Assembly (NCBI RefSeq): GCF_016745095.1
Contig: NZ_CP067087.1
Span: 186,001 to 250,000, forward strand
From: Croceicoccus sp. YJ47
GTDB taxonomy: Bacteria > Pseudomonadota > Alphaproteobacteria > Sphingomonadales > Sphingomonadaceae
Reading direction: 5' to 3'
DNA: 64,000 nucleotides
In this document: in pieces, positions 21,050 through 47,867 of the stretch
Layout of the letters: every line of letters starts with the position of its first letter
Numbering within the stretch: the first letter of the stretch is position 1
Notes under the pieces: model-generated
Told to the model about the DNA's origin: nothing
Database searches by the model: none
Seen by the model: only the letters and a program-made list of their open reading frames with translations
Translations under genes and position numbers: made by a program

Positions 21050-21084
21050 GTCAACATTTGAGAATATCGTTCTTTATAGAGAAT
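21050..21084 (-). promoter_or_regulatory. Shared operator-promoter module, TonB receptor
   Basis: Read on the plus strand: GTCAA, 4 bases, TGAGAAT, 3 bases, GTTCTT, then TATAGAGAA. It is the most degenerate of the four modules in the right arm. On the minus strand the first block reads TTGAC and can act as -35 box for the TonB gene about 80 bp away. The same spacing occurs at 28964, 33757 and 47772. Confidence 0.65.
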
Positions 21085-21160
21085 TCAGGTGAGCGCCGCC
21101 CGTGGAGGAGGATGCCATCTCCAAGGTTTACACGGGGTTGAACTTCTGTATGATGAACAC

Positions 21161-21177
21161 CATTCTCTATTCCGAAT
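21161..21177 (+). promoter_or_regulatory. Half-site of the shared operator
   Basis: CATTCTCTATTCCGAAT here is identical over 16 bases to the right part of the module upstream of the P450 gene (read on its minus strand). The left arm is not recognisable. It lies about 95 bp before the MFS permease start and may place that operon in the same regulon. Confidence 0.45.
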
Positions 21178-21207
21178 GGAAAGAGCGGCATCACCGGGGA
21201 GAGGCAG

Positions 21208-21273
21208 ATGATAAGGAATAGCGCCCGACGGCGGCTGAATCGTCAGATCATCCTGTGGTGGATGGCCGCATGA
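21208..21273 (+). CDS. Possible 21-aa leader ORF coupled to MFS gene
   Basis: ATG at 21208 follows GGGGAGAGG at ideal distance, a much better ribosome site than that of the MFS gene. The frame encodes [21 protein letters not shown] and stops in TGA at 21271-21273, overlapping the MFS ATG at 21270 (ATGA). This is the layout of a translationally coupled leader peptide. It may instead be a chance frame. No homologue is recognised. Confidence 0.4.
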   Translation: MIRNSARRRLNRQIILWWMAA

Positions 21274-22823
21274 AGTTCGGTAAAATCTCGCGCGAGCATC
21301 CTTCGACCGCCTATCGCAACTATGTGCTGGGTGTGTTTTCGCTGATCTACGCGCTCAACTTCATCGATCGGCAGATCATCAGCGTTCTCGCTCTCGACCT
21401 GAAACGCGACCTTGGCCTTTCCGATGCCGATCTCGGTTTCTTGTACGGAACAGCGTTCGGCGTGTTCTACGCCCTGTTCGGCATCCCCATGGGTCGCCTT
21501 GCCGATAGCTGGAACAGGATTCGCCTGGTTACGATCGGATTTGCGTTCTGGTCGTTGATGACGACATTGTCGGGCTTCGCCCGTACCGGAGTGCAATTGA
21601 CGCTCGCCCGCATCGGCGTGGGTGTCGGGGAAGCAACCGCGTCGCCGTGCGCATATTCGTTGATCTCCGACTACTTTCCGAAGAATCGGCGCGCGACCGC
21701 GATCGCGCTTTATACCGCCGGAATGTATATCGGATCGGGCGCGTCGCTGTTCATCGGCGCGAAGATTGTCGAGGTATGGAACGACGCATTTCCCGAAGGT
21801 TGGCAAGGGATCGTCGGGTGGCAGGCTGCCTTCATGGCAGTCGGACTGCCCGGTCTTGCGCTCGCATGCTTGGTCGCCACGTTGAGGGAGCCGGTTCGCG
21901 GCCTGTCGGATGGGATCGAACAGCCTCCCGTGGAGCGTCCCTTTCGCGGTTTCCTCGATGAATTGCTGACCATGGTCCCACCGTTCTGCCTGTTCACGGC
22001 GGCGCGCCGCGGGCGCGGACCGCTGTTGGTCAACATTGCCGCGGCCACGCTCATTTCGTTGATAGCACTGGGTCTGATCGCCTGGACCGGCGACAAGCTG
22101 CAATGGGTCGCCGTTGGTATCGGCGTATATGCTATCTTTAGCTGGGTTGCCGCCCTCAAGAGCCGTGACCGTCCTGCATGGACGCTCATATGGAAGACGC
22201 CGTCTTTTCTTTATCTCACCATCGGCCACGGACTGACATCATTCGTGAACTATGCGGTGATCTTCTGGTCATTGCCTTACGTCGAAAGTGAATTGGGTGC
22301 GGACCGCGCCGAGGCCGCCTTTTTTATCGGCGGTGCTGGCGCGGTGGCGGGCTTCGTTGGCCTGATTTTCGGGGGACGCTTCGCCGATTTCCTGAGGGAA
22401 CGCCATCCCTCGGGCCGCGTGATGGTGATGATCGCGGGCGCGATCCTTCCGTTCGTCCCGTTGACCGTGATTTTCACCACCGGAAGTCTTGGCGTGTTCT
22501 ACGTCCTCTATTTTCCGATGATCCTCTTCGGTAGCATCACCTTGCCGTCGGCAGGGGCCACCTCGCAGGATCTGGTGCTTCCACGCATGCGCGGATTGGC
22601 ATCTGCGACGTTCCTTCTATCACTCACCATGATCGGTCTGGCCCTTGGTCCCTATTCGGTTGGAGCCATCTCTTCGGCCACCGGTAGCATGTCCACGGCC
22701 ATTCTCTCGCTCATGGCGGTGCTACCCGTATCGATCCTGATGTTCGTCCTCTTGTACTTACGCTTGCCAAAAGCTGAGGAAACCCTCGTCGAGAGAGCCC
22801 GGCAAGCCGGAGAACAATTATGA
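21270..22823 (+). CDS. MFS transporter (spinster-like)
   Basis: A 517-aa inner-membrane permease with about 12 helices. The start region reads [24 protein letters not shown], followed by the MFS signature [13 protein letters not shown] between helices 2 and 3 and [13 protein letters not shown] in helix 4, typical of the spinster-like/aromatic-acid type MFS group found in sphingomonads. An alternative GTG start lies at 21255. Its stop overlaps the CoA-transferase subunit A start (ATGA), so it heads a run of coupled catabolic genes to about 28183. Likely role: uptake of the substrate or an intermediate acid. Confidence 0.82.
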
Positions 22824-23530
22824 GAAACAAGGTAATGGACAGCGCCGATAATGCGCTGAGCGATCTGTTGAAAGATGGCATCACGCTGATGTCGGGCGGG
22901 TTCGGGCTATGCGGCAATCCCGAAACCCTGATCGAGGCTGTGCGCGCTTCGCAGGTGAAATCCCTGACCGTCATCTCCAACAATGCAGGTGCCGATAACT
23001 TCGGCCTGTGGGCGCTGCTCGAAAACAAGCAGGTGAAGAAAATGATTTCTTCCTATGTCGGAGAGAACAAGCTGTTCGAGCAGCTTTACCTTTCCGGCGC
23101 GCTCGAGCTTGAACTCAATCCACAAGGCACCTTGGCGGAACGCATTCGCGCAGGGGGTGCCGGCATTCCGGCATTCTATACCCGGACCGGTGTCGGCACA
23201 GTGGTGGCCGAGGGAAAGCCGACCGAGGTTTTTGACGGGATCGAGTATGTCCGCGAACGTTGGCTCAGAGCGGATGTTGCATTGGTCAAAGCCTGGCGCG
23301 CAGACCCGGAAGGAAACCTGGTTTTCCGCAAGACCGCTCGCAATTTCAACCCGATGATGGCCACCGCCGGCAAGGTCACGGTGGTCGAGGTGGAGGAACT
23401 GGTCGAGGCCGGCTCGCTCGACCCCGATTGCATCCACGTGCCCGGCATTCATGTCGACCGCATCGTGATGGCGACAATAAACGAAAAGCGCATCGAGCGT
23501 CTTACCGAGCGAACTCGGGAAAGCGCCTAA
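22820..23530 (+). CDS. 3-oxoacid CoA-transferase, subunit A
   Basis: A 236-aa subunit of a family I CoA-transferase. The glycine-rich [12 protein letters not shown] at about residues 23-34 and the VISNNAG segment are typical of the alpha subunit of SCOT/PcaI/AtoD-like enzymes, which move CoA from succinyl- or acetyl-CoA to a 3-oxoacid or similar acid. The matching beta subunit is not adjacent; the only one in the window is at 47868, 25 kb away in the same cluster. The ATG overlaps the permease stop. Confidence 0.88.
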
Positions 23531-23556
23531 CCCAAAGATTACAGGATACCCAGACC

Positions 23557-24993
23557 ATGAACGATTATTCCAGCAAGCTCGGCCTCTACATCGGCGGCGA
23601 ATGGCTCGGCCCCGAGGGACGCGACACGACGCAACCCCGCAATCCGGCCACCGGCGAGGTGATCGGTGAACTGCCGAGCGCCAGCCTCGATGATCTGGAC
23701 CGCGCCCTGCAGGCCGCCGAAGAAGGGTTTGCGCAGTGGCGCGACACCTCCGGAACGGAGCGGGCCAATGTCCTGCGGAAAGCCGCCGCGCTCTTGCGTG
23801 AAAGGGCAGACGACATCGCCCGCATCGCGACCATGGAACAGGGCAAGCCGGTGGCCGAGGCAAAGGGCGAGCTGGGCCTGACCGCATCGCTGATCGAATT
23901 CCATGCTGGCGAAGCGGAGCGCATCTACGGCCGCGTCCTGCCTCGTCCGACGGGCTCCCGTTCGCTCGTACTGCACCAGCCGATCGGCGTGGTGGCAGCA
24001 TTCTGTGCCTGGAACTTTCCCATACTCAACCCGGCGCGCAAGCTTGCCCCGGCTCTGGCGGCGGGCTGCGCGATCATCCTCAAGCCAAGCGAGGAGACCG
24101 CCGGGAGCGCAATCGCGATCATGCGTTGCTTTGAGGATGCCGGCCTTCCCGGCAAGGTCGCGCAGATGGTGTTCGGCGTGCCTGACACGATTTCGCGCCA
24201 CCTGCTTGCCTCCCCCGTCACCCGCAAATTGAGTTTCACCGGATCGGTGCCCGTCGGCAAGCATCTGATGAAGCTCGCGGCGGACACGGTCATGCGCTCC
24301 ACCATGGAACTGGGTGGGCACGGGCCGGTACTGGTGTTTGACGACTGCGATCTGGACAAGACTCTGGACATGTTGGTTCCGCACAAATTCCGCAATGCCG
24401 GACAGGTGTGCATCTCGCCGACCCGTTTCCACGTACAGGAAGGTATTTACGAAAAATTCGCGCGCGGCTTTGCCGAGCGCACGAGCGCGCTGAGGGTCGG
24501 ATCCGGTTTCGAGAGCGAAACGCAAATGGGGCCGATGGCCAATGCGCGCCGGCCCGAAGCAATCGACGCCATGGTCGAGAATGCCCGTTCCGAAGGTGCG
24601 ACAGTGCTCACCGGCGGAACGCGCGGCGCGAACGGGCGCGGTTTTTTCTACCAGCCGACCGTGCTGACCGACGTGCCCATGACTGCCAGGCTCATGAACG
24701 ACGAGCCATTCGGTCCGGTCGCCATGATAAGTCGCTTCGCGAGCGACGATGACGCAATAGCCGAAGCCAACCGCCTGCCCTACGCCCTGGCCGCCTATTG
24801 CTTCACGGAAAATGGCCGCCGCCAGAACCGTCTGGGCGACGAGATCGAGGCGGGGATGATTGCTGTGAACCAGCTGGCCCTGAGCTGGCCCGACAGCCCG
24901 TTTGGCGGGATGAAGGACAGCGGCTTCGGATCGGAAGATGGACCCGAAGGGGTAATGGCTCACCTGGTTACCAAGACATTTCACATGAAATGA
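23557..24993 (+). CDS. NAD(P)-dependent aldehyde dehydrogenase 1 (succinate-semialdehyde type)
   Basis: A 478-aa aldehyde dehydrogenase. The conserved CAWNFP, SFTGSVPVGKHLM, MELGGHGP (general base Glu) and FRNAGQVC (nucleophile Cys, about residue 287) are all present, and the C-terminus has SPFGGMKDSG. The layout is closest to GabD/succinate-semialdehyde dehydrogenases. It oxidises an aldehyde intermediate to the acid for CoA activation. It follows subunit A of the CoA-transferase by 26 bp in the same operon. The ATG at 23557 has a weak ribosome site (ACAGGA). Confidence 0.87.
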   Translation: MNDYSSKLGLYIGGEWLGPEGRDTTQPRNPATGEVIGELPSASLDDLDRALQAAEEGFAQWRDTSGTERANVLRKAAALLRERADDIARIATMEQGKPVAEAKGELGLTASLIEFHAGEAERIYGRVLPRPTGSRSLVLHQPIGVVAAFCAWNFPILNPARKLAPALAAGCAIILKPSEETAGSAIAIMRCFEDAGLPGKVAQMVFGVPDTISRHLLASPVTRKLSFTGSVPVGKHLMKLAADTVMRSTMELGGHGPVLVFDDCDLDKTLDMLVPHKFRNAGQVCISPTRFHVQEGIYEKFARGFAERTSALRVGSGFESETQMGPMANARRPEAIDAMVENARSEGATVLTGGTRGANGRGFFYQPTVLTDVPMTARLMNDEPFGPVAMISRFASDDDAIAEANRLPYALAAYCFTENGRRQNRLGDEIEAGMIAVNQLALSWPDSPFGGMKDSGFGSEDGPEGVMAHLVTKTFHMK

Positions 24994-25036
24994 CCCGCTC
25001 GGCACGAGACGACCAGCGCAGGACAGGAGAGAGATC

Positions 25037-25474
25037 ATGACCGACCAACCACGCATCGCCGGAGGCATCGGCGCCGATGATCCCTTCTGGGATGCACTCG
25101 AAGAAGGCCGTTTCGTCGCACCGAAATGTTCCTCGTGTCATCAGTGGATGTGGCCCGCGCATTACCGGTGCGGCAAATGTGGATCCTGGGATCTCGATTG
25201 GGAAGAGATCGAGATGACGGGCACGCTTTTCACCTGGACGCGCAACCATGCTGTATCCGAAGTGGTGAAGGAACGCCGTGAGGACACGCCTTTCGTAACG
25301 CTTCTCGTCGAGCTTCCGCAGGCGGGCTCGATCCGCATTCCCGGCGTGCTGGAAGGCGATGAAGACGGTCTGGCGATCGGCGCCCGGCTTACGGGTCGTA
25401 TCAGGCCGGGTGACGAAAAGTCGAAAGGCTACGCCACCGTGGTCTGGCATCTTGCGGAAGGAAACCGTGCATGA
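25037..25474 (+). CDS. DUF35/OB-fold zinc-ribbon protein
   Basis: A 145-aa protein with a rubredoxin-like zinc ribbon (CSSC at about residue 31, CGKC at about 45) and a C-terminal OB-fold (TPFVTLLVELPQAGSIRIPGVL). DUF35 proteins are partners of thiolase-fold enzymes; in steroid side-chain degradation a DUF35 domain (ChsH2) is required with Ltp2 for retro-aldol cleavage. Its TGA overlaps the ATG of the thiolase-fold gene (ATGA), so the two are made together and probably form a complex. It does not itself carry a catalytic motif. Confidence 0.87.
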   Translation: MTDQPRIAGGIGADDPFWDALEEGRFVAPKCSSCHQWMWPAHYRCGKCGSWDLDWEEIEMTGTLFTWTRNHAVSEVVKERREDTPFVTLLVELPQAGSIRIPGVLEGDEDGLAIGARLTGRIRPGDEKSKGYATVVWHLAEGNRA

Positions 25475-26649
25475 ACACCGCAAACGCATTTCGAGGAGCC
25501 GCCGCTGTCGTCGGTATCGGTCAGACACCGTATTACAAGCGCGGAACGTCACCCGATGGCGAAACGAAGCTGGCGCTCCGGGCCATCATAGCCGCAGCCG
25601 AGGATGCCGGGATGGATCCGGCGGACATCGACGGTTTCGTATCCTACGGGTCGGAGCGCAATACCGGCCAGAAACTCATGCCCGCGCTCGGCACAAAGGA
25701 TATGCGCTTCGCGGCACTCGCATGGACGCATGGTGGCGGCATTCCCGCCGCCTTGTTGCTGGCCGCGCAGGCCATTCATTCAGGCCAGGCCGAAGCCGTC
25801 GTCGTTTATCGCGCGATGGCGGAGCAGAGTAACCAGCGCTTGCAGGTCGCCGTGACGCAGGGGGATACGCCGGCACAGTTTCTGGCCAACGGGATCGATA
25901 TGGTCCTGCAGCGTTCCGCCATGCGCAGCCAGCGGCTCATCGAGCACCACGGCGTCCCCGCCTCTACGCTGGAGGCGATCGCGCGCGCCGGATACCATCA
26001 CGCGCGGAACAATCCGGGCGCCGCCGGTCACGGGCAGCCCTTGAGTCACGAGAAATACCAGGCATCGCGTTTCATTTCCGAACCGTTGCACCTGTTCGAT
26101 TGCTCCCGCGAGAACGACGGCGCGGCCGCCGTCATACTGGTTTCCGCAGAACGGGCGAGGAGCATGAAGCAGAAACCCGCCTTCCTCCTGTCCTGCCCGA
26201 TGGGTGCAGAAGCGCAGTCGTCATCGGGATCGCTGGAGGACAATCACGAGCCCTATGTCAGTGTCGGCATGATCCATCTTGCCAAGCGCCTGTGGGAGGA
26301 ATCAGGATACGGCCCCGAAGACGTGGACGTTGCCCAGATCTACGAGAACTTCACCGGCATGGCCGTGGCCTCGATCATCGATCACGGCTTTTGCACGTAC
26401 GAAAACGCAGGGGCGTTCATCACACTGGACAATCTGACTGCACCGTCCGGCGCCTTGCCGATCAACACGTCGGGCGGAAACATCGCAGACGGTTTCATTC
26501 ACGGAATGGGGCTGGTGCTCGAAGCGGTCCGTCAGATCCGCGGGACATCGACAAATCAGGTGCCCAACGCGAAACTGTCACTGATGGCAGGCGGGCCTGG
26601 AGACTCCGTGACCAGCACGGCGCTGTTCGGAAGCGAGGAGACGCTGTGA
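25471..26649 (+). CDS. Thiolase-fold lipid-transfer/SCP-x-like protein, no nucleophilic Cys
   Basis: A 392-aa thiolase-fold protein of the SCP-x/Ltp2 type. The position of the thiolase nucleophile (normally within CSTG or CASG) reads WTHGGG, so classical thiolysis is unlikely. The family features FDCSRENDGAAAVI, YENFTGM and NTSGGNIADGFIHGMG remain. With an adjoining DUF35 gene, this matches the Ltp2/ChsH2-like arrangement in which the pair performs a retro-aldol cleavage of a 3-hydroxyacyl-CoA. That activity is inferred from family and context. An alternative is a structural or acyl-transfer role. Confidence 0.82.
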   Translation: MNTANAFRGAAAVVGIGQTPYYKRGTSPDGETKLALRAIIAAAEDAGMDPADIDGFVSYGSERNTGQKLMPALGTKDMRFAALAWTHGGGIPAALLLAAQAIHSGQAEAVVVYRAMAEQSNQRLQVAVTQGDTPAQFLANGIDMVLQRSAMRSQRLIEHHGVPASTLEAIARAGYHHARNNPGAAGHGQPLSHEKYQASRFISEPLHLFDCSRENDGAAAVILVSAERARSMKQKPAFLLSCPMGAEAQSSSGSLEDNHEPYVSVGMIHLAKRLWEESGYGPEDVDVAQIYENFTGMAVASIIDHGFCTYENAGAFITLDNLTAPSGALPINTSGGNIADGFIHGMGLVLEAVRQIRGTSTNQVPNAKLSLMAGGPGDSVTSTALFGSEETL

Positions 26650-26650
26650 C

Positions 26651-28183
26651 ATGAGCCAGATGGGATTGATACATGACGGGCTGGACTACTGGGCGAGGCG
26701 CACCCCTGAAAAAATGGCCTTCTCGTTCGACGGGGAGGATGCCCTCACCTACGGCGAGCTCGCCAAATGGAGCGACGGTCTGGCGGAGCATTTGCAGAGC
26801 CAGGACGTCCGGCCGGGAGACCGCGTAGCAATTGCAGCAGCCAACTCGCTGGAATGGATCGCCAGCGCCTTTGCCATTGCCAAGTCCGGCGGCATCATCG
26901 TGCCATTCAATGACCGGCTTGTGGGACTGGAACTCCACTACCTCGCCTCGGACAGTGATCCGCGCCTGATAATCGCGGATTCCGAGCGCGCCGAGCGAAT
27001 GGTGAAAGCGGGCGTGACCGCAACCATCATGCCCATCGACCATGTCTCGCAATTTCGCGGCGGCGCCACCGACGGATGGCAGCAGGTCCGCCGGGAGAGC
27101 GAGGATGTGGCGATGATCATTTTCACCAGCGGCTCCACCTCCCGGCCTAAGGGAGCCATGATGACGCACGGGAGTTATCTCCTGAAGTTCACCGAGATGC
27201 TGCTGCTCGACAATCGCATCGGCGCCGAAACCCGATCACTGATGCCCTTCGGTCTTCATTCGTCGCCCGGACTGCCCTGGGGCCAGATGTTCACGACCAT
27301 AGTCGGCGGAACGCTGTATTTCACGCAGAAATACTCTACCGAGAAAATCTTGCGACTGCTCGCTCAGGAGCGGATCACATTCTTCATTGGCGTGCCCATG
27401 ATCTATGATCAATTGGCCGATCTGCCTCAATTCGCCGATGCGGATCTATCGCATTTGACTTTCGCCCGCATCGGCGGCGCCACACCCACCAGGGAAACGC
27501 TCGCGCGCTGGATGGAAAAAGGCATCGCCCTGCGCCAGCTCTACGGCATGTCCGAGGTTGGCGGAGGTGCCATCATCGCCAGCGAAGCGGAAGCACGTGC
27601 CCGGCCCGACAGTTGCGGCCGCGGCCTCGCTCTGTCGCGCTTCCGCATTCAGCGTGACGACGGGAGCCCATGCGATCCTGGCGAAGCGGGGCATATCCTG
27701 CTCACCGGACCGGGTTTGATGAAAGCATACTGGAACAAGCCCGAAGAGACATCCGCTGCATTGCAGGACGGATGGATGCATACAGGCGATATCGGCATGG
27801 TCGATGAGGAAGGATATTTCCATTTCATCGACAGGTCGAAAGAGATGATCAAGTCTGGCGGCTTCAACGTTTCTCCCGCCGAGATCGAAGGCATCATCTC
27901 GCAGCATCCCGCCATTGCCGAGGTCGCCGTTTTCGGCGTGCAGGATGCCGATTACGCAGAAGCAATTTTCGCCTGCGCGCGTTGCAATGCCGCGCTGGAA
28001 GAACAGGAATTGTTCGATTGGTGCGCGGAAAGGATGGCAGGATACAAGCTGCCGCGATATGTGGAATTAACGGATAAACCGCTCCCGCGGCTTGCAAATG
28101 AAAAAGTCGATCGACAACAACTCAAGCGAACCTATGCCGCCGTTTCCAACAGACGCGACAGACTAAGGTCCGGCATCGGATAA
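26651..28183 (+). CDS. AMP-forming acyl-CoA synthetase
   Basis: A 510-aa member of the ANL superfamily that activates a carboxylic acid with ATP and CoA. The P-loop IFTSGSTSRPKGAM at about residues 155-168, LYGMSEVGGGA, the GWMHTGDIG/FIDRSKEMIKSGG region and the C-terminal NEKVDR with the catalytic lysine are present. It starts 1 bp after the thiolase-fold stop. It is the last enzyme of the operon starting at the MFS gene and precedes an iclR gene by 20 bp. Substrate class cannot be told from sequence. Confidence 0.88.
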   Translation: MSQMGLIHDGLDYWARRTPEKMAFSFDGEDALTYGELAKWSDGLAEHLQSQDVRPGDRVAIAAANSLEWIASAFAIAKSGGIIVPFNDRLVGLELHYLASDSDPRLIIADSERAERMVKAGVTATIMPIDHVSQFRGGATDGWQQVRRESEDVAMIIFTSGSTSRPKGAMMTHGSYLLKFTEMLLLDNRIGAETRSLMPFGLHSSPGLPWGQMFTTIVGGTLYFTQKYSTEKILRLLAQERITFFIGVPMIYDQLADLPQFADADLSHLTFARIGGATPTRETLARWMEKGIALRQLYGMSEVGGGAIIASEAEARARPDSCGRGLALSRFRIQRDDGSPCDPGEAGHILLTGPGLMKAYWNKPEETSAALQDGWMHTGDIGMVDEEGYFHFIDRSKEMIKSGGFNVSPAEIEGIISQHPAIAEVAVFGVQDADYAEAIFACARCNAALEEQELFDWCAERMAGYKLPRYVELTDKPLPRLANEKVDRQQLKRTYAAVSNRRDRLRSGIG

Positions 28184-28203
28184 AAGCTGACGAAAGGGTC
28201 GGG

Positions 28204-28980
28204 ATGGACGGCGCAAAGACAGGGAAGTTGGCCAAAAGGGTGGGTGCCGTGACGCAGGCGTTCGCCCTTTTGCGAATACTTGCCCGAGCGGACCCACCAC
28301 GCGGCGTGACGGCTCTGGCCAGGGCCGCCGATGTCAATCCGTCGACTGCGTTCAATATTCTGCGAACGCTTGTTTTTGAAAACGCGGTAACATTCGACGA
28401 GCGTACCAAAACCTACGCCCTGTCACGCGGCTTGCTCGAAATATGCGGCGGTATGGCGGCGCGATCCCTGGAGCAGGAAATGGTCGGCGATCTGCAGCGC
28501 ATCGCCGACAGGACGACTTGCCTTGTGGGCCTTTGGCAATCGACCAATGGCAGGATGCAACTGGTCGAGCGGGCCGTGGCAAAAAGCCCGGTGCGGCTCG
28601 ACATGCAGATCCATCAGAAACTGCCTGCGTTTGCCGGGGCGGTGGGGCGCGCCTGGGCCGCGGCCCAGGGTCTATCCGACGAAAAGCTTCGAGATGGCTT
28701 CGATGAAATCCGCTGGGACGGACCGCTCGATGGCGAGCGCTACATCGCCGAGGTGCAGATGGCACGCGAGGCCGGATACGCGATTGACGAGGGTGCCTTG
28801 CATCCGGGCATCGTTACGGTGGCTGCCGTGATCGTGGACAGCGACGGGACGGTTACCCACGGCCTGACCGCCAGCGACATCGCGCACAGGCTGGATCGGG
28901 AGCGACTGAAGGAACTGGGCAAGGACTTGCGAGAGCTTGCCATTCGCTTCTCGGGATTTCCTTCCGATAATTCGGAATAG
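28204..28980 (+). CDS. IclR-family regulator 1
   Basis: A 258-aa regulator with an N-terminal winged helix (VTQAFALLRILARAD; VNPSTAFNILRTL at about residues 40-52) and a C-terminal IclR ligand-binding domain (LPAFAGAVGRAWAA; EGALHPGIVTVAAVI). It is clearly paralogous to the IclR gene at 32951-33709. Position between the acyl-CoA synthetase operon and the P450 promoter fits local control. The shared palindrome at 28980-28994 begins on the last base of its stop codon. One of the two IclR proteins, or both, is the best candidate to bind the four shared modules. Confidence 0.88.
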   Translation: MDGAKTGKLAKRVGAVTQAFALLRILARADPPRGVTALARAADVNPSTAFNILRTLVFENAVTFDERTKTYALSRGLLEICGGMAARSLEQEMVGDLQRIADRTTCLVGLWQSTNGRMQLVERAVAKSPVRLDMQIHQKLPAFAGAVGRAWAAAQGLSDEKLRDGFDEIRWDGPLDGERYIAEVQMAREAGYAIDEGALHPGIVTVAAVIVDSDGTVTHGLTASDIAHRLDRERLKELGKDLRELAIRFSGFPSDNSE

Positions 28981-29004
28981 AGAATATTATTCTCAAATAT
29001 TGAC
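28964..29004 (+). promoter_or_regulatory. Shared operator-promoter module, P450 operon
   Basis: The core GAGAATATTATTCTC at 28980-28994 is a perfect 6-3-6 palindrome. ATTCGGAATA precedes it and TTGAC follows at 29000-29004, 97 bp before the P450 start. Read on the minus strand it gives GTCAA, 4 bases, TGAGAAT, 3 bases, ATTCTC, TATTCCGAA, matching the module at 47772 closely. Confidence 0.75.
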
Positions 29005-29100
29005 GGATCGCTTCCACACTGTGATTCTGACCATCAAGACATAGGCTACGGGCCGCCGATTTTCACGCGGCACCAAGAGCAAGCGATTGGAGAGAAAGCA

Positions 29101-30330
29101 GTGTCAGGTGGTGGAGCAAGCGGGCAGAAGGTCGAAATCCCGGCGCATGTGCGTGCAGATCAGGTTTACGAGTTCGACATCTATCAGGACGAACGTCTGC
29201 TGAAAAATCCTCATCTCGGATATTTCGAGATGGCGCAGGAGGCTCCCGAAATTTTCTATACCCCGCACAATGGCGGGCACTGGCTGGTGACGAATTACGA
29301 GTTGGTGACTCAGGTCATCAGCGAGCACGAGAGTTTCTCGAACAACGAGATCGAAGTACCCAAGACCGAGAGCCCGATCCGGGCCATCCCCATCAACCTG
29401 GATCCGCCAGCGCACACCCCCTACCGCAAGATGCTGATGAAGCACTTTACCCCGAAGGTGATCGCCGGCCTCGAGGACAAGATGCATCATTGGTCGAAGG
29501 AATTGATTGGCAAGGTGCAGGATCGAGGCGCGTGCGATTTCGCCACCGAACTGGGCGCGCTTTACCCCGTAACGATCTTCATGGAGATGGCGGGCCTGCC
29601 GCTGGACCGCTATGTCGAGTTCCGCAATCTGGTGACCGAATTCTTCGGCCAGATAACCAGGGAGCGCCGCATTGAATTGCAGCGCAAGATGCTCTCGGAA
29701 TTGAAGGCTGTTTTCGACGATCGCCGCGAAAACCCGCAGGATGACCTCTTCACGAAGCTCGTGAACGAGGAAATTGACGGACGACCGCTGACGGAGGACG
29801 AGCTTCTCTCGATCGGCTTCCTTCTGTTCGTGGCCGGTCTCGATACGGTGGCGAATGCCCTGACCTTCGGTTTCAACCATCTGGCGCACAATCCCGCTCT
29901 CCAAGACCGGCTCCGGGAGAATCCTGATGATATCAAGGATTTCTTCGACGAGAGCATGCGTCGCTTCCCTGTCACCAATGGGGTCCGCCTGATCCGCAAG
30001 GACATGGAACTCGCCGGCGCTCATTTGAAAGCCGGTGAAATGATCGTCGCACCCATGACGCTCGCCGGGCTCGATCCGGAGGTGAATGACAATCCCACCG
30101 AGTTCGACATTGATCGCAAGGGGCGCAAGCATGTCGGCTTCTCGACCGGGCCGCATCTGTGTCTGGGGCATTGGATGGCGCGTGCGGAGGTGCGAATTTT
30201 CATCGAAGAATTCCTGACGCGCATTCCTCGCTTTCGCGTGAAATCCGGTTTCGAGGAAGATTGGCGCGCGGGCGTGGTGATGTCGCTGGAAAGCCTGCCG
30301 CTGGAATGGGAAGTTCCGGGAAAAGCGTGA
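29101..30330 (+). CDS. Cytochrome P450, CYP101 (P450cam)-like
   Basis: A 409-aa soluble P450 with a GTG start preceded by GGAGAG. The heme-ligand segment is FSTGPHLCLG (Cys at about 354), the I-helix oxygen-activation motif is FVAGLDTV, and the K-helix region reads DESMRRFP. The INLDPPAHTPYRKML and VAGLDTVANALTF stretches resemble P450cam (CYP101) and its sphingomonad relatives, which hydroxylate camphor-like and other terpenoid or alicyclic compounds using a ferredoxin and reductase. No ferredoxin or reductase gene lies in the window. It likely starts degradation by hydroxylating an unactivated carbon. Confidence 0.88.
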   Translation: MSGGGASGQKVEIPAHVRADQVYEFDIYQDERLLKNPHLGYFEMAQEAPEIFYTPHNGGHWLVTNYELVTQVISEHESFSNNEIEVPKTESPIRAIPINLDPPAHTPYRKMLMKHFTPKVIAGLEDKMHHWSKELIGKVQDRGACDFATELGALYPVTIFMEMAGLPLDRYVEFRNLVTEFFGQITRERRIELQRKMLSELKAVFDDRRENPQDDLFTKLVNEEIDGRPLTEDELLSIGFLLFVAGLDTVANALTFGFNHLAHNPALQDRLRENPDDIKDFFDESMRRFPVTNGVRLIRKDMELAGAHLKAGEMIVAPMTLAGLDPEVNDNPTEFDIDRKGRKHVGFSTGPHLCLGHWMARAEVRIFIEEFLTRIPRFRVKSGFEEDWRAGVVMSLESLPLEWEVPGKA

Positions 30331-30341
30331 GTAAGTCGATC

Positions 30342-31418: not shown

Positions 31419-31478
31419 GCGCGCGATCCCCGGCTCGCTCAACACAGGCTTGGTCAATACCATGGCAAGGACATGACA

Positions 31479-33709: not shown

Positions 33710-33756
33710 GATGCGCGAGAGCTATTGCGGTCCGCCACTCCGGTCAATGCGCAATA

Positions 33757-33792
33757 TATTTTCTATCGAGAATGTTATTCTCAATGATTGAC
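33757..33792 (+). promoter_or_regulatory. Shared operator-promoter module, Rieske operon
   Basis: GAGAATGTTATTCTC at 33768-33782 is a perfect 6-3-6 palindrome, followed 5 bases later by TTGAC at 33788-33792. The Rieske start is 73 bp further on and the divergent IclR start is 59 bp away on the other side, so both genes may be controlled from here. Confidence 0.75.
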
Positions 33793-33864
33793 ATTGGTGC
33801 GCAATCTTCGCCATTCCATAGCCCATAAATTCAAGAATAACCGCGGAATATGGAGGGGAACCCG

Positions 33865-35070: not shown

Positions 35071-35092
35071 GCGGCACGAGAGGTTTCATTCC

Positions 35093-36559: not shown

Positions 36560-36665
36560 TTCACCCGATGCCGAATTACTTTCTCGGTAAAGAATTCTTG
36601 TTTTGCGGTATCTTCAAAGAAGATTTCCCACCCGGTCAGCGTGTTACAGGAAAGAGTTTGCGAAG

Positions 36666-38798
36666 ATGGCAAAATCGCTAGATGCATTGTTTGCACCGCG
36701 AAGCATCGCATTCATCGGTGCATCGAACGATCCCACCCGCATAGGCGGCCGCCCCCTGCACTATTGCCTTCGCGATGGCTTCGAAGGTGAGATTTACCCC
36801 GTAAATCCGTCCCGCGATAAAGTGCAGGGCCTGAAAGCCTTTCCCAGCATCGGCGCAATACCTGCCGACGAAGTTGATTTGCTGGTGATCGCCGTTCCGC
36901 CCAAGGCTATCCCGATGGTCCTCGCGGAAGCGGGTGCGAAAAATGTCCGTGCCGCGGTGGTCCTCACTTCCGGCTTCTCGGAAACAGGGGAAAAAGGCGC
37001 GGCATTGGAAGCCGAGATGCTGGCCACCGCCAGGAAGCTTGGCATCCGCTTGCTCGGCCCGAATTGCCTTGGCTTTTACAAAGCGGGTGATGGAATAGCC
37101 GCAACGTTTTCCAGCCTCCTGGAAGACGGCCCTCCCCCCCAAGGGGAGCTCGCCATTGTTTCGCAGTCGGGCGCTTATGGCGCACATATTGCCATGCTGG
37201 CGCGCCGCCGGGGAATAGGGCTCGCCAGCTTCGCGGCTACCGGGAATGAGTGCGATATTGGCGTTGCCGATCTGATCGAAGCCGCAGCGGCCGACATCAA
37301 CGTGAAAGTCATCGGCTGTTATGTCGAGGGTATCCGGCATGGCCGTGCCTTTCTTCGCGCTGTCGAGGTGGCACGCCTGGCAGGCAAACCCGTCATCCTG
37401 TTGAAAGTCGGCACGTCCAGTTCCGGCCAGAAAGCCGCCCAGTCCCACACCGCCAGTCTCGCCGGAGACGATCGCACTCTCGACCAGATCATAGGCCGCT
37501 CCGGCGCCATTCGGGTCGAAACCACGCAAGAGCTGGTGGACACTCTCTACGTGTTGACGCGCCGTGGGCTACTGGCGAGCAATCGCCTTGGGATCCTCAC
37601 CGTATCGGGAGGCGCCGGCATACTGATGGCGGACGCGGCAGAAGCAGCCGGATTCGATATTGCCAGCATGCCTGAACCGGCACGGGCGGACCTCGACGCG
37701 CGCATACCGCTCGGCTCATCCGCCAACCCTGTCGATACGACCGCGCAGGCGATGAGCGATGCTTCGATCGTACGCGATGCGGTATCGATCGTAACACGCC
37801 AGGGTAATTACGATGCGGTCGTCGCGTTCTTCATGAATTGGCCGGAAAGCCCGGTGCTCGGCCCACCTCTCCGCGAAGCGATTCAGCAGGGACTGGAAAG
37901 CGGCAGCGAGGTGCCCTTCGCCATCTGCATGAACGCAGGGCCGCGCACGGTAAGCGAGTACGAGGAGACAGGACTGCTGGTCTTCGAGGACCCCTCATTC
38001 GCCGTCACGGCGCTTGCCCATGCTGCAACCGCAGGGCGCGCAATATCGGGTGCTCCCGCATGCGTGCCGACGCTGCCCGATACGAGCACCAAATGTTTCG
38101 TTCGCCTTGACGAGGCTGAAGCCCTTGCCGCACTGGCGGACGCCGGCATTCCCACGATGCCCTTCGCAACGGCTCGCAATTCCGCGGAAGCTGGAAGGAT
38201 CAGTCGCCAGTTCGATGGCCCTCTCGCCATCAAGGTGATATCCCCGGATGTGCAGCACAAATCCGATGCCGGCGGCGTTCGCCTCGCCGTCGATCCTGGA
38301 AATCAGGCCGCAGATGCCGCCTCCAAGATACTCGCTGACGTAGGCCGTGCGCATCCCGCGGCAGAGATACGCGGCGTTCTGATTGCCCCGATGATCAGGG
38401 GTGTTGCCGAACTCATACTGGGCGCCCGGATTGATCCGGTTTTCGGTCCTGTCGTGTCGGTCGGCATGGGCGGCATTTTTACCGAGCTTCTCGATGATGT
38501 CGCGATCGGTCTTGCTCCGCTCGACGCGAATGAGGCGCTCGAACTCATCCGGTCCCTTTGCGGGTTCCCTCTGCTCGACGGCATGCGCGGGAAACCTCGC
38601 GTCGATATACGCGCTGCCGCAGAGACAATGGCGGCGATGAGCCGCTTCATTGCCCGACATCGCGGCACAATTCTCGAAGTGGAAATCAACCCCCTGCTCT
38701 TGCTCGAAGAGCACAAGGGTGCGGTGGCGCTCGACGCGCTCATCATCCCTGAGACCGCCGAAAACCCGGTGATACAGAATGGGCAAGCGGCTGCGTGA
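36666..38798 (+). CDS. ADP-forming acyl-CoA synthetase (Acs/Pat-like fusion)
   Basis: A 710-aa fusion of the alpha and beta parts of an NDP-forming acyl-CoA synthetase. Residues 1-130 form the CoA-binding Rossmann domain (SIAFIGASNDPTRIGG), about 150-450 the succinyl-CoA-ligase-like domains with the phosphohistidine segment QSHTASLAGDD, and about 490-700 the ATP-grasp domain (IKVISPDVQHKSDAGGV). These enzymes reversibly make acyl-CoA from acid, ATP and CoA. A related GNAT-fused form exists, but there is no GNAT domain here. Together with the AMP-forming synthetase and the CoA-transferase, the cluster has three ways to make or exchange acyl-CoA. Confidence 0.87.
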   Translation: MAKSLDALFAPRSIAFIGASNDPTRIGGRPLHYCLRDGFEGEIYPVNPSRDKVQGLKAFPSIGAIPADEVDLLVIAVPPKAIPMVLAEAGAKNVRAAVVLTSGFSETGEKGAALEAEMLATARKLGIRLLGPNCLGFYKAGDGIAATFSSLLEDGPPPQGELAIVSQSGAYGAHIAMLARRRGIGLASFAATGNECDIGVADLIEAAAADINVKVIGCYVEGIRHGRAFLRAVEVARLAGKPVILLKVGTSSSGQKAAQSHTASLAGDDRTLDQIIGRSGAIRVETTQELVDTLYVLTRRGLLASNRLGILTVSGGAGILMADAAEAAGFDIASMPEPARADLDARIPLGSSANPVDTTAQAMSDASIVRDAVSIVTRQGNYDAVVAFFMNWPESPVLGPPLREAIQQGLESGSEVPFAICMNAGPRTVSEYEETGLLVFEDPSFAVTALAHAATAGRAISGAPACVPTLPDTSTKCFVRLDEAEALAALADAGIPTMPFATARNSAEAGRISRQFDGPLAIKVISPDVQHKSDAGGVRLAVDPGNQAADAASKILADVGRAHPAAEIRGVLIAPMIRGVAELILGARIDPVFGPVVSVGMGGIFTELLDDVAIGLAPLDANEALELIRSLCGFPLLDGMRGKPRVDIRAAAETMAAMSRFIARHRGTILEVEINPLLLLEEHKGAVALDALIIPETAENPVIQNGQAAA

Positions 38799-38838
38799 CC
38801 CGTGAATAATGACTATGTTCGATGTGAGGCGCTGAACC

Positions 38839-39663
38839 GTGACAACTAACCAGACAGGGGAAACGCGACAGGACGGCGCCGCCGCGCCGACGCAATACTG
38901 CAAAGTTCTCCGTGAAGGGCCGCTCACGATCGTCACGATCAATCGCCCGGATTGTCTCAACGCGCTTCATACCGACGCGCATTTCGAACTTGCCCGCGTG
39001 TTTGACGAGTTTGCAGCAGATCCGGAGCAGTGGATTGCCATCATCACTGGCGAGGGGCGCGCCTTCAGCGCCGGAAACGATCTGAAGTTCCAGGCAAAAG
39101 GGGGCGGACTCGACCGACCCGACAGCGATTTCGGCGGCCTGACCGGACGGTTCGACTGCGAGAAGCCGATCATCGCGGCCGTGAACGGGCTGGCGCTTGG
39201 CGGCGGGTGCGAGATTGCCCTGTCATGCGACATCGTGATCGCATCGGATGATGCAATCTTCGCCCTGCCCGAACCACGGGTCGGGATGGCAGCGCTTGCA
39301 AGCGGGTTGCATCGCCTGCCTCGCACGATCGGTTGGCAGCAGGCGATGGGCATGATCCTGACCGGCCGCCGGGTATCGGCACACGAAGCCCGCGAGATGG
39401 GATTTGTGAACAGTGTCGTATCTCCCGAGGAACTGATCGCCGAGGCACGCCGCTGGGCGGAGATGATCCTGCAGGGCAGCCCGCTCGCCATTCGCGCTGC
39501 GAAAAGCATCGCCCGCAAGGGTCTCGAAAAAGCGTCACTGGAGCAGGCTTTTCTCAGCCAGCGCGATAACGAGGCGCTCGATGTCATGCTAGGCTCGGAA
39601 GAGTATCGGGAAGGACCCAAAGCATTCGCTGAAAAACGGCAGCCTATCTGGAAGGGCCGCTGA
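38839..39663 (+). CDS. Enoyl-CoA hydratase/isomerase (crotonase family)
   Basis: A 274-aa crotonase with a GTG start. The oxyanion-hole segments are GRAFSAGNDLKF (about residue 75) and ALGGGCEIALSCD (about 115), and both candidate acid/base glutamates are present, in GGCE and LPEPRVGM. The N-terminal 20 residues are a low-complexity extension. It likely hydrates an enoyl-CoA intermediate to the 3-hydroxyacyl-CoA. It lies 40 bp after the acyl-CoA synthetase and ends the Rieske transcript; decayed IS sequence follows. Confidence 0.87.
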   Translation: MTTNQTGETRQDGAAAPTQYCKVLREGPLTIVTINRPDCLNALHTDAHFELARVFDEFAADPEQWIAIITGEGRAFSAGNDLKFQAKGGGLDRPDSDFGGLTGRFDCEKPIIAAVNGLALGGGCEIALSCDIVIASDDAIFALPEPRVGMAALASGLHRLPRTIGWQQAMGMILTGRRVSAHEAREMGFVNSVVSPEELIAEARRWAEMILQGSPLAIRAAKSIARKGLEKASLEQAFLSQRDNEALDVMLGSEEYREGPKAFAEKRQPIWKGR

Positions 39664-39745
39664 GCGCATGATGCGTAACAAGGTTTCCAAAACGCGCGAT
39701 GATTGGAACCATCGGCAATCCTGAGTCGTCGTCGTCACGATTGAT
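39664..39745. other. Spacer before IS5-type remnant
   Basis: About 80 bases after the crotonase stop with no recognisable signal. Confidence 0.3.
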
Positions 39746-40363: not shown

Positions 40364-40372
40364 GTCCCGATC

Positions 40373-41875: not shown

Positions 41876-41928
41876 CTCACTATTCTGTATGCGAAAGATC
41901 ATTCTCGCAAGAAAAAGGTTTGAGAGGC

Positions 41929-44279: not shown

Positions 44280-44287
44280 CGCCGTGA

Positions 44288-45448
44288 TCAGAGCGCCTCG
44301 AATATCGTGACGTTCGCGATGCCGCCTGCCTCGCACATCGTTTGCAGGCCGTAGCGTTTACCCCGCGATCTAAGGGCGTGGATCAACGTTGCCGTGAGTT
44401 TGGCGCCCGTCGCGCCCAGCGGATGGCCTAGCGCGATCGAACCGCCATTGACGTTCAGCCTGTCCGGGTCCGCATCCAGTTGTTGCAGCCAAGCCATCGG
44501 CACGGGTGCGAACGCCTCGTTGACTTCGTAAAGGTCGATCTGATCCAGGTTCATACCCGCCTGGTCCATCGCCCGGCGCGTTGCATTGATCGGCTCGTCC
44601 AGCATGATGACCGGATCGCCTGCCGTTACGGTCATGCCGGCGATACGCGCAATGGGCGTCAGGCCATGATCCCTTAGCGCGCGTTCTCCCACGATCAGCA
44701 AGCCCGACGCTCCGTCGCAGATCTGGCTGGCATTGCCTGCCGTGATGACCCCATCCTCCACAAGGGGCTTGAGATCGGCCAGCGCCTTTAACGAAGCATC
44801 AAAGCGAATGCCTTCGTCCCGGGTATGCGTTCCTTCGCTGTCCGTGAGCGGCACCATCTCCGCGTCGAAGGCTCCGGAACGTGAAGCCGCAGCCGCCTTG
44901 CGGTGGCTCATCAGCGCAAAGTTGTCGAGATCCTCGCGCGAAAAGCCATATTTCCCGGCCATCATTTCCGCGCCCGTGAACTGGCTGAACCCGTCGACAC
45001 CGTACCGTTCAAGCACACGCCGACTGTACGGCCCTTCGCCAAGGCCCGCCTCGTCATGCAGCTTGCGGTTCGAAAACATCGGCACCCGCGTCATGCTCTC
45101 CCCGCCGCCTGCAATCACCATGTCCTGCACGCCGCTCATCACCGACTGCGCTGCGAAATGTATCGATTGCTGCGAACTGCCGCACTGGCGGTCGATGGTA
45201 ACGCCCGGCACCGATTGCGGCAATCTGGACGAAAGCACCGCATTACGCGCAAAGGCGTTGCTCTGCTCGCCCGCCTGAGTGACGCAACCGAGGATCACGT
45301 CATCCACCGCCGCGGGGTCGATGCCTGTCTTGTCGAGCAAGGCATTGATGACTTCAGCGGCCATGTCCGCCGGATGCCAGTGCGAGGCCGCTCCCTTGCG
45401 GCGACCGCCGGGTGTACGCAGTGTTTCAACGATATAGGCTTCATTCAT
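44288..45448 (-). CDS. Acetyl-CoA acyltransferase (thiolase II type)
   Basis: A 386-aa thiolase that cleaves 3-oxoacyl-CoA with CoA. It is the only one of three thiolase-fold proteins here with the full active site: nucleophile Cys in DRQCGSSQQS (about residue 88), His in NVNGGSIALGHPLGATG, and the second Cys in TMCEAGG near the C-terminus. The start is ATG at 45448; the longer open frame upstream belongs to antisense sequence. It is the last gene of a minus-strand operon with the kinase and acyl-CoA dehydrogenase (26 bp spacing). Confidence 0.88.
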   Translation of the reverse strand: MNEAYIVETLRTPGGRRKGAASHWHPADMAAEVINALLDKTGIDPAAVDDVILGCVTQAGEQSNAFARNAVLSSRLPQSVPGVTIDRQCGSSQQSIHFAAQSVMSGVQDMVIAGGGESMTRVPMFSNRKLHDEAGLGEGPYSRRVLERYGVDGFSQFTGAEMMAGKYGFSREDLDNFALMSHRKAAAASRSGAFDAEMVPLTDSEGTHTRDEGIRFDASLKALADLKPLVEDGVITAGNASQICDGASGLLIVGERALRDHGLTPIARIAGMTVTAGDPVIMLDEPINATRRAMDQAGMNLDQIDLYEVNEAFAPVPMAWLQQLDADPDRLNVNGGSIALGHPLGATGAKLTATLIHALRSRGKRYGLQTMCEAGGIANVTIFEAL

Positions 45449-45473
45449 GAGAAGGGGTTTTCCTCTGTCTGTT

Positions 45474-46538
45474 TCAGGAGCAGGCGCGCATCGCATCGCC
45501 GGCAAGTCTCGCCAGCTGAGGGAAATCCGCTGCCCTCTCAGCCGCTTGGGCACTGGAGGCATTTCCGCGAATGACCCGTCCCTTGATCCCGTGGAAAATT
45601 GCCGCCAGGCGAAAAAAGTTGAACGCGATGTAGAAATCCCAATTGGCGATGCCATCGCGCCTCGTGCGGCGGCAGTAATCGTCGATATATTCGCGCTCGG
45701 TCGGGATATTCAGCGCATTCAAATCAGCGTCGCGCAATCCGGGCACGATATGGGGCGGCATGCGGTACATCATGGCATTATAGGAAAAGTCGGAGAGCGG
45801 ATGGCCAAGCGTGGAAAGCTCCCAGTCGAGCACGGCCAGCACGCGCGGCTCGGTGGGGTGAAAGATCATGTTGTCGCACCGGCAATCGCCATGAACGATC
45901 GTGGTCTCGTCGCCCGGCGGGATATTCCGCGGCAACCATTCGACCAGCGCATCCATCTCGGGATCGCGCCCGGCCTCCTCGTCGGCGAGATATTGCTTTG
46001 ACCAGCGTCCGATCTGACGCGCGAAATAGTTTCCCGGCCTCCCGTAATCGCCAAGGCCGACGGCCTCGAAATCTACCGAGTGGAGCCGCGCGAGCGTATC
46101 ATTCATTGCGCCGAAATAGGCAGGCCGTTGGTCACGCCCGACGTCGGGAAAGCTTGCGTCCCAGAATATCCGGCCCTCGACCATCTCCATCACGAAAAAT
46201 GGCGTTCCAAGGACGGTATCCTCGTTGCACAGGCCCAGAATTCGCGGCACGGGAAATTCGGTTTCGCCCAGCGCCGCCATGACGCGGGCCTCCCGCTCGA
46301 CCGCGTGAGCCCCTTTCAGGATTTCGCCGGGCGGTTTGCGGCGCAGGACGTAACGACCGGAGGGCGATGCGAGCCGATAGGTCGGATTGGATTGGCCGCC
46401 CTTGAATTGCGCGATCCTGAGCGGTCCCGAGTAATCGAGAATATTCTCGCCCATCCATGCATTGAGAGCGTCGCGATCGATTTCGTATCCCTCGCGCACT
46501 GCTGTCGTGCCGGTATTCTCCTGGCCCAAGGTGCTCAC
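45474..46538 (-). CDS. APH-type phosphotransferase, ACAD10/11 kinase-domain-like
   Basis: A 354-aa protein of the aminoglycoside phosphotransferase (APH/ChoK) fold. Kinase motifs are visible: KGGQSNPTYRL nucleotide loop, LRRKPPGEI with the ATP-binding Lys region, IVHGDCRCDNMIFH catalytic loop at about residue 205 and LDWELSTLG metal-binding Asp. GTG at 46538 overlaps the acyl-CoA dehydrogenase stop (GTGA), so the two are co-translated. In human ACAD10/ACAD11 these two domains are fused, and in the levulinate pathway of Pseudomonas putida LvaA and LvaC are the corresponding separate proteins; there the kinase phosphorylates a 4-hydroxyacyl-CoA. The same is inferred here. It is not an antibiotic-resistance gene. 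Confidence 0.83.
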   Translation of the reverse strand: MSTLGQENTGTTAVREGYEIDRDALNAWMGENILDYSGPLRIAQFKGGQSNPTYRLASPSGRYVLRRKPPGEILKGAHAVEREARVMAALGETEFPVPRILGLCNEDTVLGTPFFVMEMVEGRIFWDASFPDVGRDQRPAYFGAMNDTLARLHSVDFEAVGLGDYGRPGNYFARQIGRWSKQYLADEEAGRDPEMDALVEWLPRNIPPGDETTIVHGDCRCDNMIFHPTEPRVLAVLDWELSTLGHPLSDFSYNAMMYRMPPHIVPGLRDADLNALNIPTEREYIDDYCRRTRRDGIANWDFYIAFNFFRLAAIFHGIKGRVIRGNASSAQAAERAADFPQLARLAGDAMRACS

Positions 46539-47725
46539 GGCGCAGCTTTCCTCTGCTGCGCCTTCTTGATCTTTTTCGCGAGCGACCACTTGTGGACTTC
46601 CGTCGGGCCATCATAGATCCGGAACGCGCGCAATTCGCGAAACACCTGTTCGACCACCGTTTTGTCGGTCACCCCCGTCCCGCCCAGAACCTGCACGCAA
46701 TTGTCCGCAACACGCATCAGGGCTTCCGACACTGCGACTTTGGTCATGGAACTCTCGGTCGTGCCCAGATCGCCGGAGTCAAGTATCGATGCACACCAGA
46801 AGACCATCAATTCCGCCTGTTTCAGGTCGATCTGGTTCTGCGCCAACATGAAACCGACCCCTTCGTGATCGATCAGCAGTTTGCCGAACGCTTCGCGCCG
46901 GCAGACATAATCGATGGCGATTTCCTGGCAACGCATCGCCGCACCCAACCAGCGCATACAGTGCGAAAGGCGCGCAGGACTGAGCCTGACTTGCGCATAG
47001 CGAAAACCCTCGCCGGCCTCGCCAAGCATTTGGTCAGCCGGAACGCGAAGGTTCTCGATCGCCACGCTGGCGTGTCCACCCGGCATCGAATTGTCGATCG
47101 TGTTGGGAACGCGCTCGATACGAATTGCGGGATCCGGCAGGTCGACGATGAACATGCAAGCACCGCCCCCCTCCTCTACGCTCTCGGCCTTTGCCATCAC
47201 GATACCGACGCCGGCGCCATCGGCACCCGTGATGAACACCTTGCGCCCGTTCACGACCCAATGATTGCCATCCTTGCGGCAGGTGGTCTTCATCATCGAA
47301 GGATCCGACCCCGCCCCGCCCCATTCGGCGGGCTCTGTCATGAAGAAGGCGCTGCGCTCCTCGCCCGACACCAGCCGACCCAGAAACTTTTTCTTCAGAT
47401 GGTCGCTGCCGACATGGCCGAGCAAATACATATTGCCTTCGTCCGGCGCATTGGTGTTGAGCGCCAGCGGGCCAAGCGGGGAGAGCCCGGACCGGATGAG
47501 CACATGCGCGGTTTCGACCTGGGTCAGGTGGCTGCCGTCCTCCAGAATATGGGGCGTCATCAGCCCGGCATCATTCGCCAGATCGCGCATTTCGCGCACC
47601 AGTTCCTCGGTCGGCGCCCCGTGGTGGTCGCGGCGCCCGTCAGTTTCGAATGGAACGATGACATCGCGCACGAAGCGCTCCACCTCGCCGCCAATATCGC
47701 GCGCCCGCCGGGAAATCTCGATCAT
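46535..47725 (-). CDS. Acyl-CoA dehydrogenase, ACAD10/11-like
   Basis: A 396-aa FAD acyl-CoA dehydrogenase with AAGGAGAGAG before its ATG. Motifs: FFMTEPAEWGGAGSDPS and FITGADGAG in the middle domain, and RIYDGPTEVHK near residue 372, where common acyl-CoA dehydrogenases have YEGT with catalytic Glu. The DGPxEVH form is that of the ACAD10/ACAD11/LvaC subgroup, which processes 4-phosphorylated hydroxyacyl-CoA. The overlapping kinase gene supports this. Its promoter carries a strong copy of the shared palindromic module, 47 bp upstream. Confidence 0.87.
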   Translation of the reverse strand: MIEISRRARDIGGEVERFVRDVIVPFETDGRRDHHGAPTEELVREMRDLANDAGLMTPHILEDGSHLTQVETAHVLIRSGLSPLGPLALNTNAPDEGNMYLLGHVGSDHLKKKFLGRLVSGEERSAFFMTEPAEWGGAGSDPSMMKTTCRKDGNHWVVNGRKVFITGADGAGVGIVMAKAESVEEGGGACMFIVDLPDPAIRIERVPNTIDNSMPGGHASVAIENLRVPADQMLGEAGEGFRYAQVRLSPARLSHCMRWLGAAMRCQEIAIDYVCRREAFGKLLIDHEGVGFMLAQNQIDLKQAELMVFWCASILDSGDLGTTESSMTKVAVSEALMRVADNCVQVLGGTGVTDKTVVEQVFRELRAFRIYDGPTEVHKWSLAKKIKKAQQRKAAP

Positions 47726-47771
47726 ACTCTCTCCTTGCAGGAACCCGCACTAACCGGACCCGCGAGCAATC

Positions 47772-47806
47772 GTCAACTTTTGAGAATGGCATTCTCTATT
47801 GCGAAG
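47772..47806 (-). promoter_or_regulatory. Shared operator-promoter module, acyl-CoA dehydrogenase operon
   Basis: GAGAATGGCATTCTC at 47782-47796 is a perfect 6-3-6 palindrome. On the plus strand it is preceded by GTCAA (47772-47776) and 5 bases, and followed by TATTGCGAA. TTGAC on the minus strand can be the -35 box of the acyl-CoA dehydrogenase; the divergent CoA-transferase subunit B starts 72 bp away on the other side. Confidence 0.75.
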
Positions 47807-47867
47807 AAAGTGCTTGCTCGCATCCCCGTGAAGTGCCTATGTCTTTGGTGGATGAAAGGAGATGGGC

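Follow-up and report, generated by a model that had tools for sequence, protein, structure and literature searches.

Operators of IclR-family regulators are described, in the excerpts of the study by Suvorova and Gelfand (2021; PMC8222616) drawn on here, as sites of three boxes in alternating direction and as tandem palindromes 18-22 nucleotides (nt) apart. We compare with them a set of sites in a 64,000-nucleotide stretch of the Croceicoccus sp. YJ47 genome (NZ_CP067087.1, positions 186,001 to 250,000), called the window below, in which an earlier note, made from the sequence alone, saw four operator-promoter modules. Each was given as a palindrome beside a TTGAC hexamer, upstream of the genes for a TonB-dependent receptor, a P450, a Rieske oxygenase and an acyl-CoA dehydrogenase, and the four were taken as one regulon of one or both of two paralogous IclR proteins, IclR1 and IclR2, acting at the -35 box. 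All four genes lie in a catabolic island. We find that every module belongs to a larger array of four half-sites, and that similar arrays stand beside the genes of several IclR relatives in other genomes.

Candidate operator arrays of the catabolic island

The pattern of the earlier note, searched as GTCAANNNNTGAGAATNNNRTTCTY, matches the window exactly at four places and, with up to three mismatches allowed, nowhere else; in 100 dinucleotide shuffles of the window the mean is 0.12 matches, and no shuffle reaches four. All four modules are therefore present as described, although only the receptor and acyl-CoA dehydrogenase sites were placed correctly, at 21050-21074 (+) and 47772-47796 (+). 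The P450 site lies at 28980-29004 (-), not at 28964, and the Rieske site at 33768-33792 (-), not at 33757, shifts of 11 to 16 bases. Three sites do have perfect GAGAAT/ATTCTC arms, the receptor site reading GAGAAT/GTTCTT, and all four carry TTGAC on the strand of the downstream gene at a constant distance from the palindrome. This hexamer is found 52-102 nt upstream of the start codon across the four target genes.

The conserved unit is larger than had been recognized. It consists of four half-sites in alternating direction, ATTC-N8-GAAT-N3-ATTC-N7-TTGAC, here numbered box 0 to box 3, and spans about 34 bp. Box 0, which the earlier description lacked, is supported by an asymmetry: read in gene direction, the upstream side matches ATTC in 14 of 16 letters, against only 3 of 12 letters at the mirrored place in the three sites with perfect arms (binomial p 3e-6). 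The palindrome centres are 18.5 nt apart, inside the range of 18-22 nt sought for tandem palindromes. When the window was scored with ATTC-N6-GAGAAT-N3-ATTCTC, the four sites alone reached 14-16 of 16 letters, and 40 shuffles never exceeded 13.

A genome-wide scan, which had been proposed earlier, returned the same four sites for GTCAANNNNTGAGAATNNNRTTCTY at up to three mismatches and no others in 3,353,209 bases on one contig, so that the pattern was not found at unrelated loci. With ATTC-N6-GAGAAT-N3-ATTCTC the scan recovered the four sites, at 0-2 mismatches, plus a single further place with 2 mismatches, at 156438. This near-miss (156438-156464) and another at 788448, one mismatch from the palindrome, both lie inside long open frames. 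A chance origin of the sites is ruled out by the window shuffles, the genome scan and the scoring of box 0. Among 298 sampled genomes of the family, ten match the form with a perfect right arm at up to 2 mismatches (a reversed control pattern gave 2 matches); only the genome of the window has four, and the other nine have one match each, always with 2 mismatches. A second genome of the genus, G382, lies outside this sample and also carries the island; 32.4 kb align at 98.5% identity, and all four sites are intact. The idea of a single regulon is thus supported: outside the island the genome has no full-score site, and the sites travel with the island.

Four near-identical blocks within 27 kb might instead be duplicated copies of a promoter, with TTGAC and palindrome retained but without present regulatory meaning. 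Between the boxes and past TTGAC the sequence varies while the boxes are kept, which weakens this explanation, and the four sites are identical in two genomes, although at 1.5% divergence this is weak evidence by itself. We regard such an origin as hardly credible.

IclR proteins and the arrays of their relatives

A Pfam scan covering 24 island genes showed no regulators other than IclR1 and IclR2, which favors their choice as the probable regulators. Both genes adjoin sites: the last bases of iclR1 fall within the P450 site, and iclR2 and the Rieske gene diverge across the Rieske site. The recognition helix of both paralogues is of the type called FN here. At the contact positions 27-30, 32 and 33 given in the excerpts of PMC8222616, aligned on the shared Ser-Thr, they agree in five of six (N, S, T, F, N) and differ only at position 28, with Pro against Thr. 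Three of the seven HTH_IclR matches in the genome were judged to be IclR proteins, and the third of these has a different helix, GLPKPTVTRLTNTL.

Relatives of these proteins were drawn from sampled genomes of the family and the order. Twelve short IclR neighborhoods scanned with the island's core gave just two matches, both with 2 mismatches. The common code emerged only from a search for palindromes of any sequence, which showed boxes resembling ATTCAY-N4-RTGAAT immediately upstream of several relatives. Seven neighborhoods were then enlarged, five (L126-L130) chosen for boxes already seen and two (L131 and L132) with an FN helix but without boxes. The pattern ATTC-N8-GAAT-N4-ATTC-N6-TTGAAY occurs with 0 mismatches in all of L126-L130 and was not found in enlarged L131 (5 mismatches) or L132 (6 mismatches); shuffles of the seven loci, 12 of each, reached 3-5 mismatches at best. 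Of 24 short loci (L102-L125), only L105, which is the same place as L128, has 0 mismatches; L111 and L118 have 2, L110 has 3, and the remaining 20 have 5-7, the level of shuffles. The outer distance from ATTC to TTGA is 30 nt in the relatives, exactly as in the island, with box 2 alone displaced, by one base, and the palindrome centres in L126-L130 are 19 nt apart.

The shorter signature ATTC-N6-TTGAAY, at up to 1 mismatch, lies near the gene of its own regulator in 20 of 31 IclR relatives, against 0.8 expected. Its presence follows the recognition helix: it accompanies five of eight FN, four of five LN and all eleven LY types (jointly 20 of 24, defined as [FL][NY].[LA][RK][TA]L), and none of seven F[RKL] types (F[RKL].LK.L). 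The Fisher p of 1e-4 for this association is soft because LN and LY were joined to FN after the larger set had been seen; the split of FN from F[RK] was first noticed on the first 11 relatives. Since five of the eight FN-helix relatives bear the same four-box array beside their own gene, the proposal of an IclR regulator gains support, and the four island sites are very probably read by one or both island proteins.

Some observations count against this assignment. Three FN-type relatives, L068, L100 and L117, have no boxes beside the IclR gene. Of the five perfect relatives, four are not independent because they apparently represent one orthologous locus, with the IclR gene beside an SDR gene. 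Around box 2 the spacers are N3 and N7 in the island and N4 and N6 in the relatives. The last box is TTGAC in the island and TTGAA[C/T] in the relatives, and box 3 of the island may therefore be only a -35.

The sites might instead be read by a regulator from another part of the genome, such as one of the Fur type. The TGAGAAT/ATTCTCA arms recall Fur boxes, whose arms are spaced by 1, and a TonB receptor is among the targets. The arm spacing here is 3, however. Moreover, a host regulator should have sites outside the island, and no full-score site occurs there (the scan used the site pattern, not a Fur consensus or gene), and the same boxes adjoin IclR genes in other genomes. We consider a host regulator very unlikely.

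Variants of these signals were observed at other loci. In six relatives with the helix PSTCLYVLRAL (L112, L114, L119, L121, L122 and L123), ATTC-N6-TTGAAT adjoins the gene, in several cases with TTGTAAAT nearby; most have no hexamer resembling a -10 behind the box, and we read them as another sub-code. L131 encodes an IclR protein 35% identical to IclR1 beside Rieske, GMC, aldehyde dehydrogenase, ChsH2 and thiolase genes, and at about 8290-8400, between its thiolase/ChsH2 unit and an acyl-CoA dehydrogenase gene, ATTCTG-N4-AAGAAT repeats occur, possibly another dialect of the same code. Related Rieske clusters do not seem to be under this control, because in 26 such loci (L016-L041, 494,555 bases) neither IclR1 nor IclR2 is among the tblastn matches listed at 1e-10, the best one for each stretch, and the core has just 12 matches, every one with 2 mismatches. 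L016-L040 show a recurring sphingomonad gene set around the Rieske gene (44-53% identical), in many loci with GMC oxidoreductase, CoA ligase, P450, ChsH2, thiolase and TonB receptor genes alongside.

Promoter geometry and mode of regulation

Geometry and hexamer suggest that the island TTGAC is a -35 box, as the earlier note had it. A hexamer starting with TA lies 16-18 nt past the last box in all five FN-type and all four LN-type relatives that bear boxes (0.05 expected by chance for each), and a dual role of the last half-site as -35 is well supported for these two types. This part of the proposal fits the island less fully, as such a hexamer follows TTGAC in only one of its four promoters and is absent from the other three. 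It also does not extend across the clade: the LY type, with a hexamer in only one of eleven relatives, rules that out.

The half-site that the earlier note saw at 21161 is real (ATTCTC at 21162) but is not a mere half-site; it belongs to a fuller site, 21153-21177, of divergent form. The 16-mer ATTCTCTATTCCGAAT (21162-21177) is repeated exactly on the minus strand at 28970-28985, within the P450 site. A single sigma-70-like promoter, with 0.2 expected, is predicted between 20900 and 21300, for the operon that begins with a major facilitator superfamily (MFS) gene. The fifth site starts within its -10 and spans the likely start region, a position that would suit a repressor. It would therefore be a more complete operator than the half-site first seen, but it is more diverged than the other four.

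We consider it probable that the four modules and the fifth site are operators of the island IclR regulator or regulators, which would repress the adjoining genes until released by a pathway compound. Four half-sites would accommodate an IclR tetramer, as two dimers on tandem palindromes with centres about 18.5 bp apart. Without inducer, IclR1, IclR2 or both would fill the array and keep sigma off the -35, which protein on boxes 2-3 would hide; at the MFS operon the regulator would cover the -10 and the start region. Binding of a pathway compound would free the regulator, and the uptake and oxidation genes would be expressed together. We infer binding, tetramer, repression, inducer and the role of TTGAC as -35 from sequence features.

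The same operators and proteins could also serve activation, with boxes 0-2 bound and RNA polymerase recruited in the presence of inducer. The core palindrome lies immediately upstream of TTGAC, the -10 regions of the island are poor, and an activated promoter would be expected to combine a good -35 with a weak -10, a point that tells against repression; the excerpts of PMC8222616 include activators and dual regulators in the family. Yet the candidate -35 is itself box 3, the predicted MFS promoter has its -10 and start under the fifth site, and one FN-type relative has a decent core promoter, TTGAAC-N17-TACAAT. The nearest characterized case found, PheR of Sphingobium, is a repressor according to the excerpted text of PMC13273656. 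Granted IclR binding, activation is a real but lesser possibility. Repression, on the same premise, is somewhat favored because protein on boxes 2-3 would hide the -35, because of the position of the MFS site, and because of the PheR precedent.

A more elaborate version of IclR control is conceivable but rather unlikely. The paralogues would share the array and switch promoters through the choice of half-site pairs, 2-3 hiding the -35 and 0-1 or 1-2 freeing it. The island would then carry a compact transposon-borne switch for uptake and catabolism with a half-site as -35 at its heart, a design recurring in the FN and LN branches.

The island and its place among known systems

The island is a segment of about 31 kb bracketed by IS240-type insertion sequences (Table 1). 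Related insertion sequences at the two ends are expected of a composite transposon of the IS240 (IS6) type, and the IS240-type DDE domain is found in both; the island is probably mobile. In G382 the island contig ends in insertion-sequence matches, part of the right flank is on another contig, and the sequence beyond the right end matches in pieces that are 88-97% identical. Nine further genomes of the genus were examined and have no IclR1 relative at E 1e-35. Among plasmid records, DNA comparison yielded two short matches (4% of the query, about 75%), and protein comparison only distant ones.

Besides the genes of Table 1 the island has a GMC oxidoreductase gene, and the best solved relative of its P450 is CYP101J2. 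Its function may be the catabolism of a hydrophobic, perhaps terpenoid, compound. Outside it, another IS240-type copy lies at 5195-6027, and a sugar-use cluster (8911-17098) to the left encodes a GH68 levansucrase/invertase-like protein, a GH97 protein, a TonB receptor, an MFS protein and a LacI regulator. Only piecewise matches to this cluster were found in nine of ten other genomes of the genus, with 65-77% identity in the long pieces.

Table 1. Operator sites, regulator genes and other features of the island, in window positions.
Feature	Position	Strand	Evidence
Four-box operator with TTGAC as -35 candidate, 5' of TonB receptor gene	21050..21084	-	1 mismatch in 17
Four-box operator 5' of P450 gene, overlapping iclR1 end	28970..29004	+	0 mismatches in 17
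Four-box operator 5' of Rieske oxygenase gene, divergent from iclR2	33758..33792	+	1 mismatch in 17
Four-box operator 5' of acyl-CoA dehydrogenase gene, divergent from CoA-transferase gene	47772..47806	-	1 mismatch in 17
Fifth, divergent-form site ATGAAC-N3-ATTCTC-N4-CCGAAT, without TTGAC box	21153..21177	+	3 mismatches in 16 to box 0-core pattern
Predicted sigma-70-like promoter TTTACA-N16-TATGAT, MFS operon	21127..21154	+	only one predicted in 20900-21300
iclR1, IclR-family regulator, 258 aa	28204..28980	+	HTH_IclR and IclR_C above Pfam cut-off
iclR2, IclR-family regulator, 252 aa, 44% identical to IclR1	32951..33709	-	HTH_IclR and IclR_C above Pfam cut-off
TonB-dependent receptor	18532..20970	-	
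MFS transporter, CoA-transferase, aldehyde dehydrogenase, ChsH2-like OB-fold protein, thiolase-like protein, AMP-binding CoA ligase; then iclR1	21255..28183	+	Pfam
CYP101-like P450, aldo/keto reductase, aldehyde dehydrogenase	29101..32966	+	
Rieske oxygenase, aldehyde dehydrogenase, NDP-forming acyl-CoA ligase-like protein, enoyl-CoA hydratase	33850..39663	+	
Acyl-CoA dehydrogenase, APH-type phosphotransferase-fold protein, thiolase	44288..47725	-	
CoA-transferase, short-chain dehydrogenase	47862..49348	+	
Left insertion sequence, IS240-type transposase domain	17578..18421		domain and sequence comparison
Right insertion sequence, 85% identical to left, transposase frame shortened	49360..50203		domain and sequence comparison
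Further IS240-type copy near right end	50878..51718		sequence comparison

These results assign a readable operator code, ATTC-N8-GAAT-N3/4-ATTC-N6/7-TTGA, to part of a sphingomonad IclR clade, and suggest that the -35 box doubles as the last operator half-site in two of the helix types. If this is true, the regulons of uncharacterized IclR proteins should be predictable from sequence. A probably mobile catabolic island would bear its own closed regulon, linking outer-membrane uptake to P450 and Rieske oxidation. A narrow search of open-licence literature found neither the half-site sequence with its gap, nor a -35 as last half-site, nor a closed regulon on an island bracketed by insertion sequences.

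Like the multi-box IclR operators in the excerpts of PMC8222616, the island sites have alternating half-sites and tandem palindromes and lie near the regulator gene. The consensuses quoted there, GKTYCRYW3-4RYGRAMC and TGRAACAN1-2TGTTYCA, do not hold the island's GAGAAT/ATTCTC with a 3-nt gap; some relatives fit a TYCRY-N4-RYGRA core (TTCAY-N4-RTGAA), of which the island sites retain only TTC...GAA with other flanks. The island further differs from the operators in those excerpts in that its last half-site coincides with a candidate -35 and in that four or five units over 27 kb share one type of array. PheR, from Sphingobium sp. SHPJ-2, is likewise a sphingomonad IclR-family regulator that ties degradation genes to TonB-type uptake. 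Its footprint, however, runs from +23 to -21 of the target promoter and requires GCAACG, its reported effect on the TonB genes is transcriptomic, and the excerpted text of PMC13273656 does not describe a multi-promoter array. The three-box sites of PcaU, PobR and HmgR, cited in the excerpts of PMC8222616, share with the island an extra half-site past the palindrome but differ in half-site sequence and serve aromatic acid pathways. The island array thus appears to fit the known multi-box plan of IclR operators, as a variant of it.

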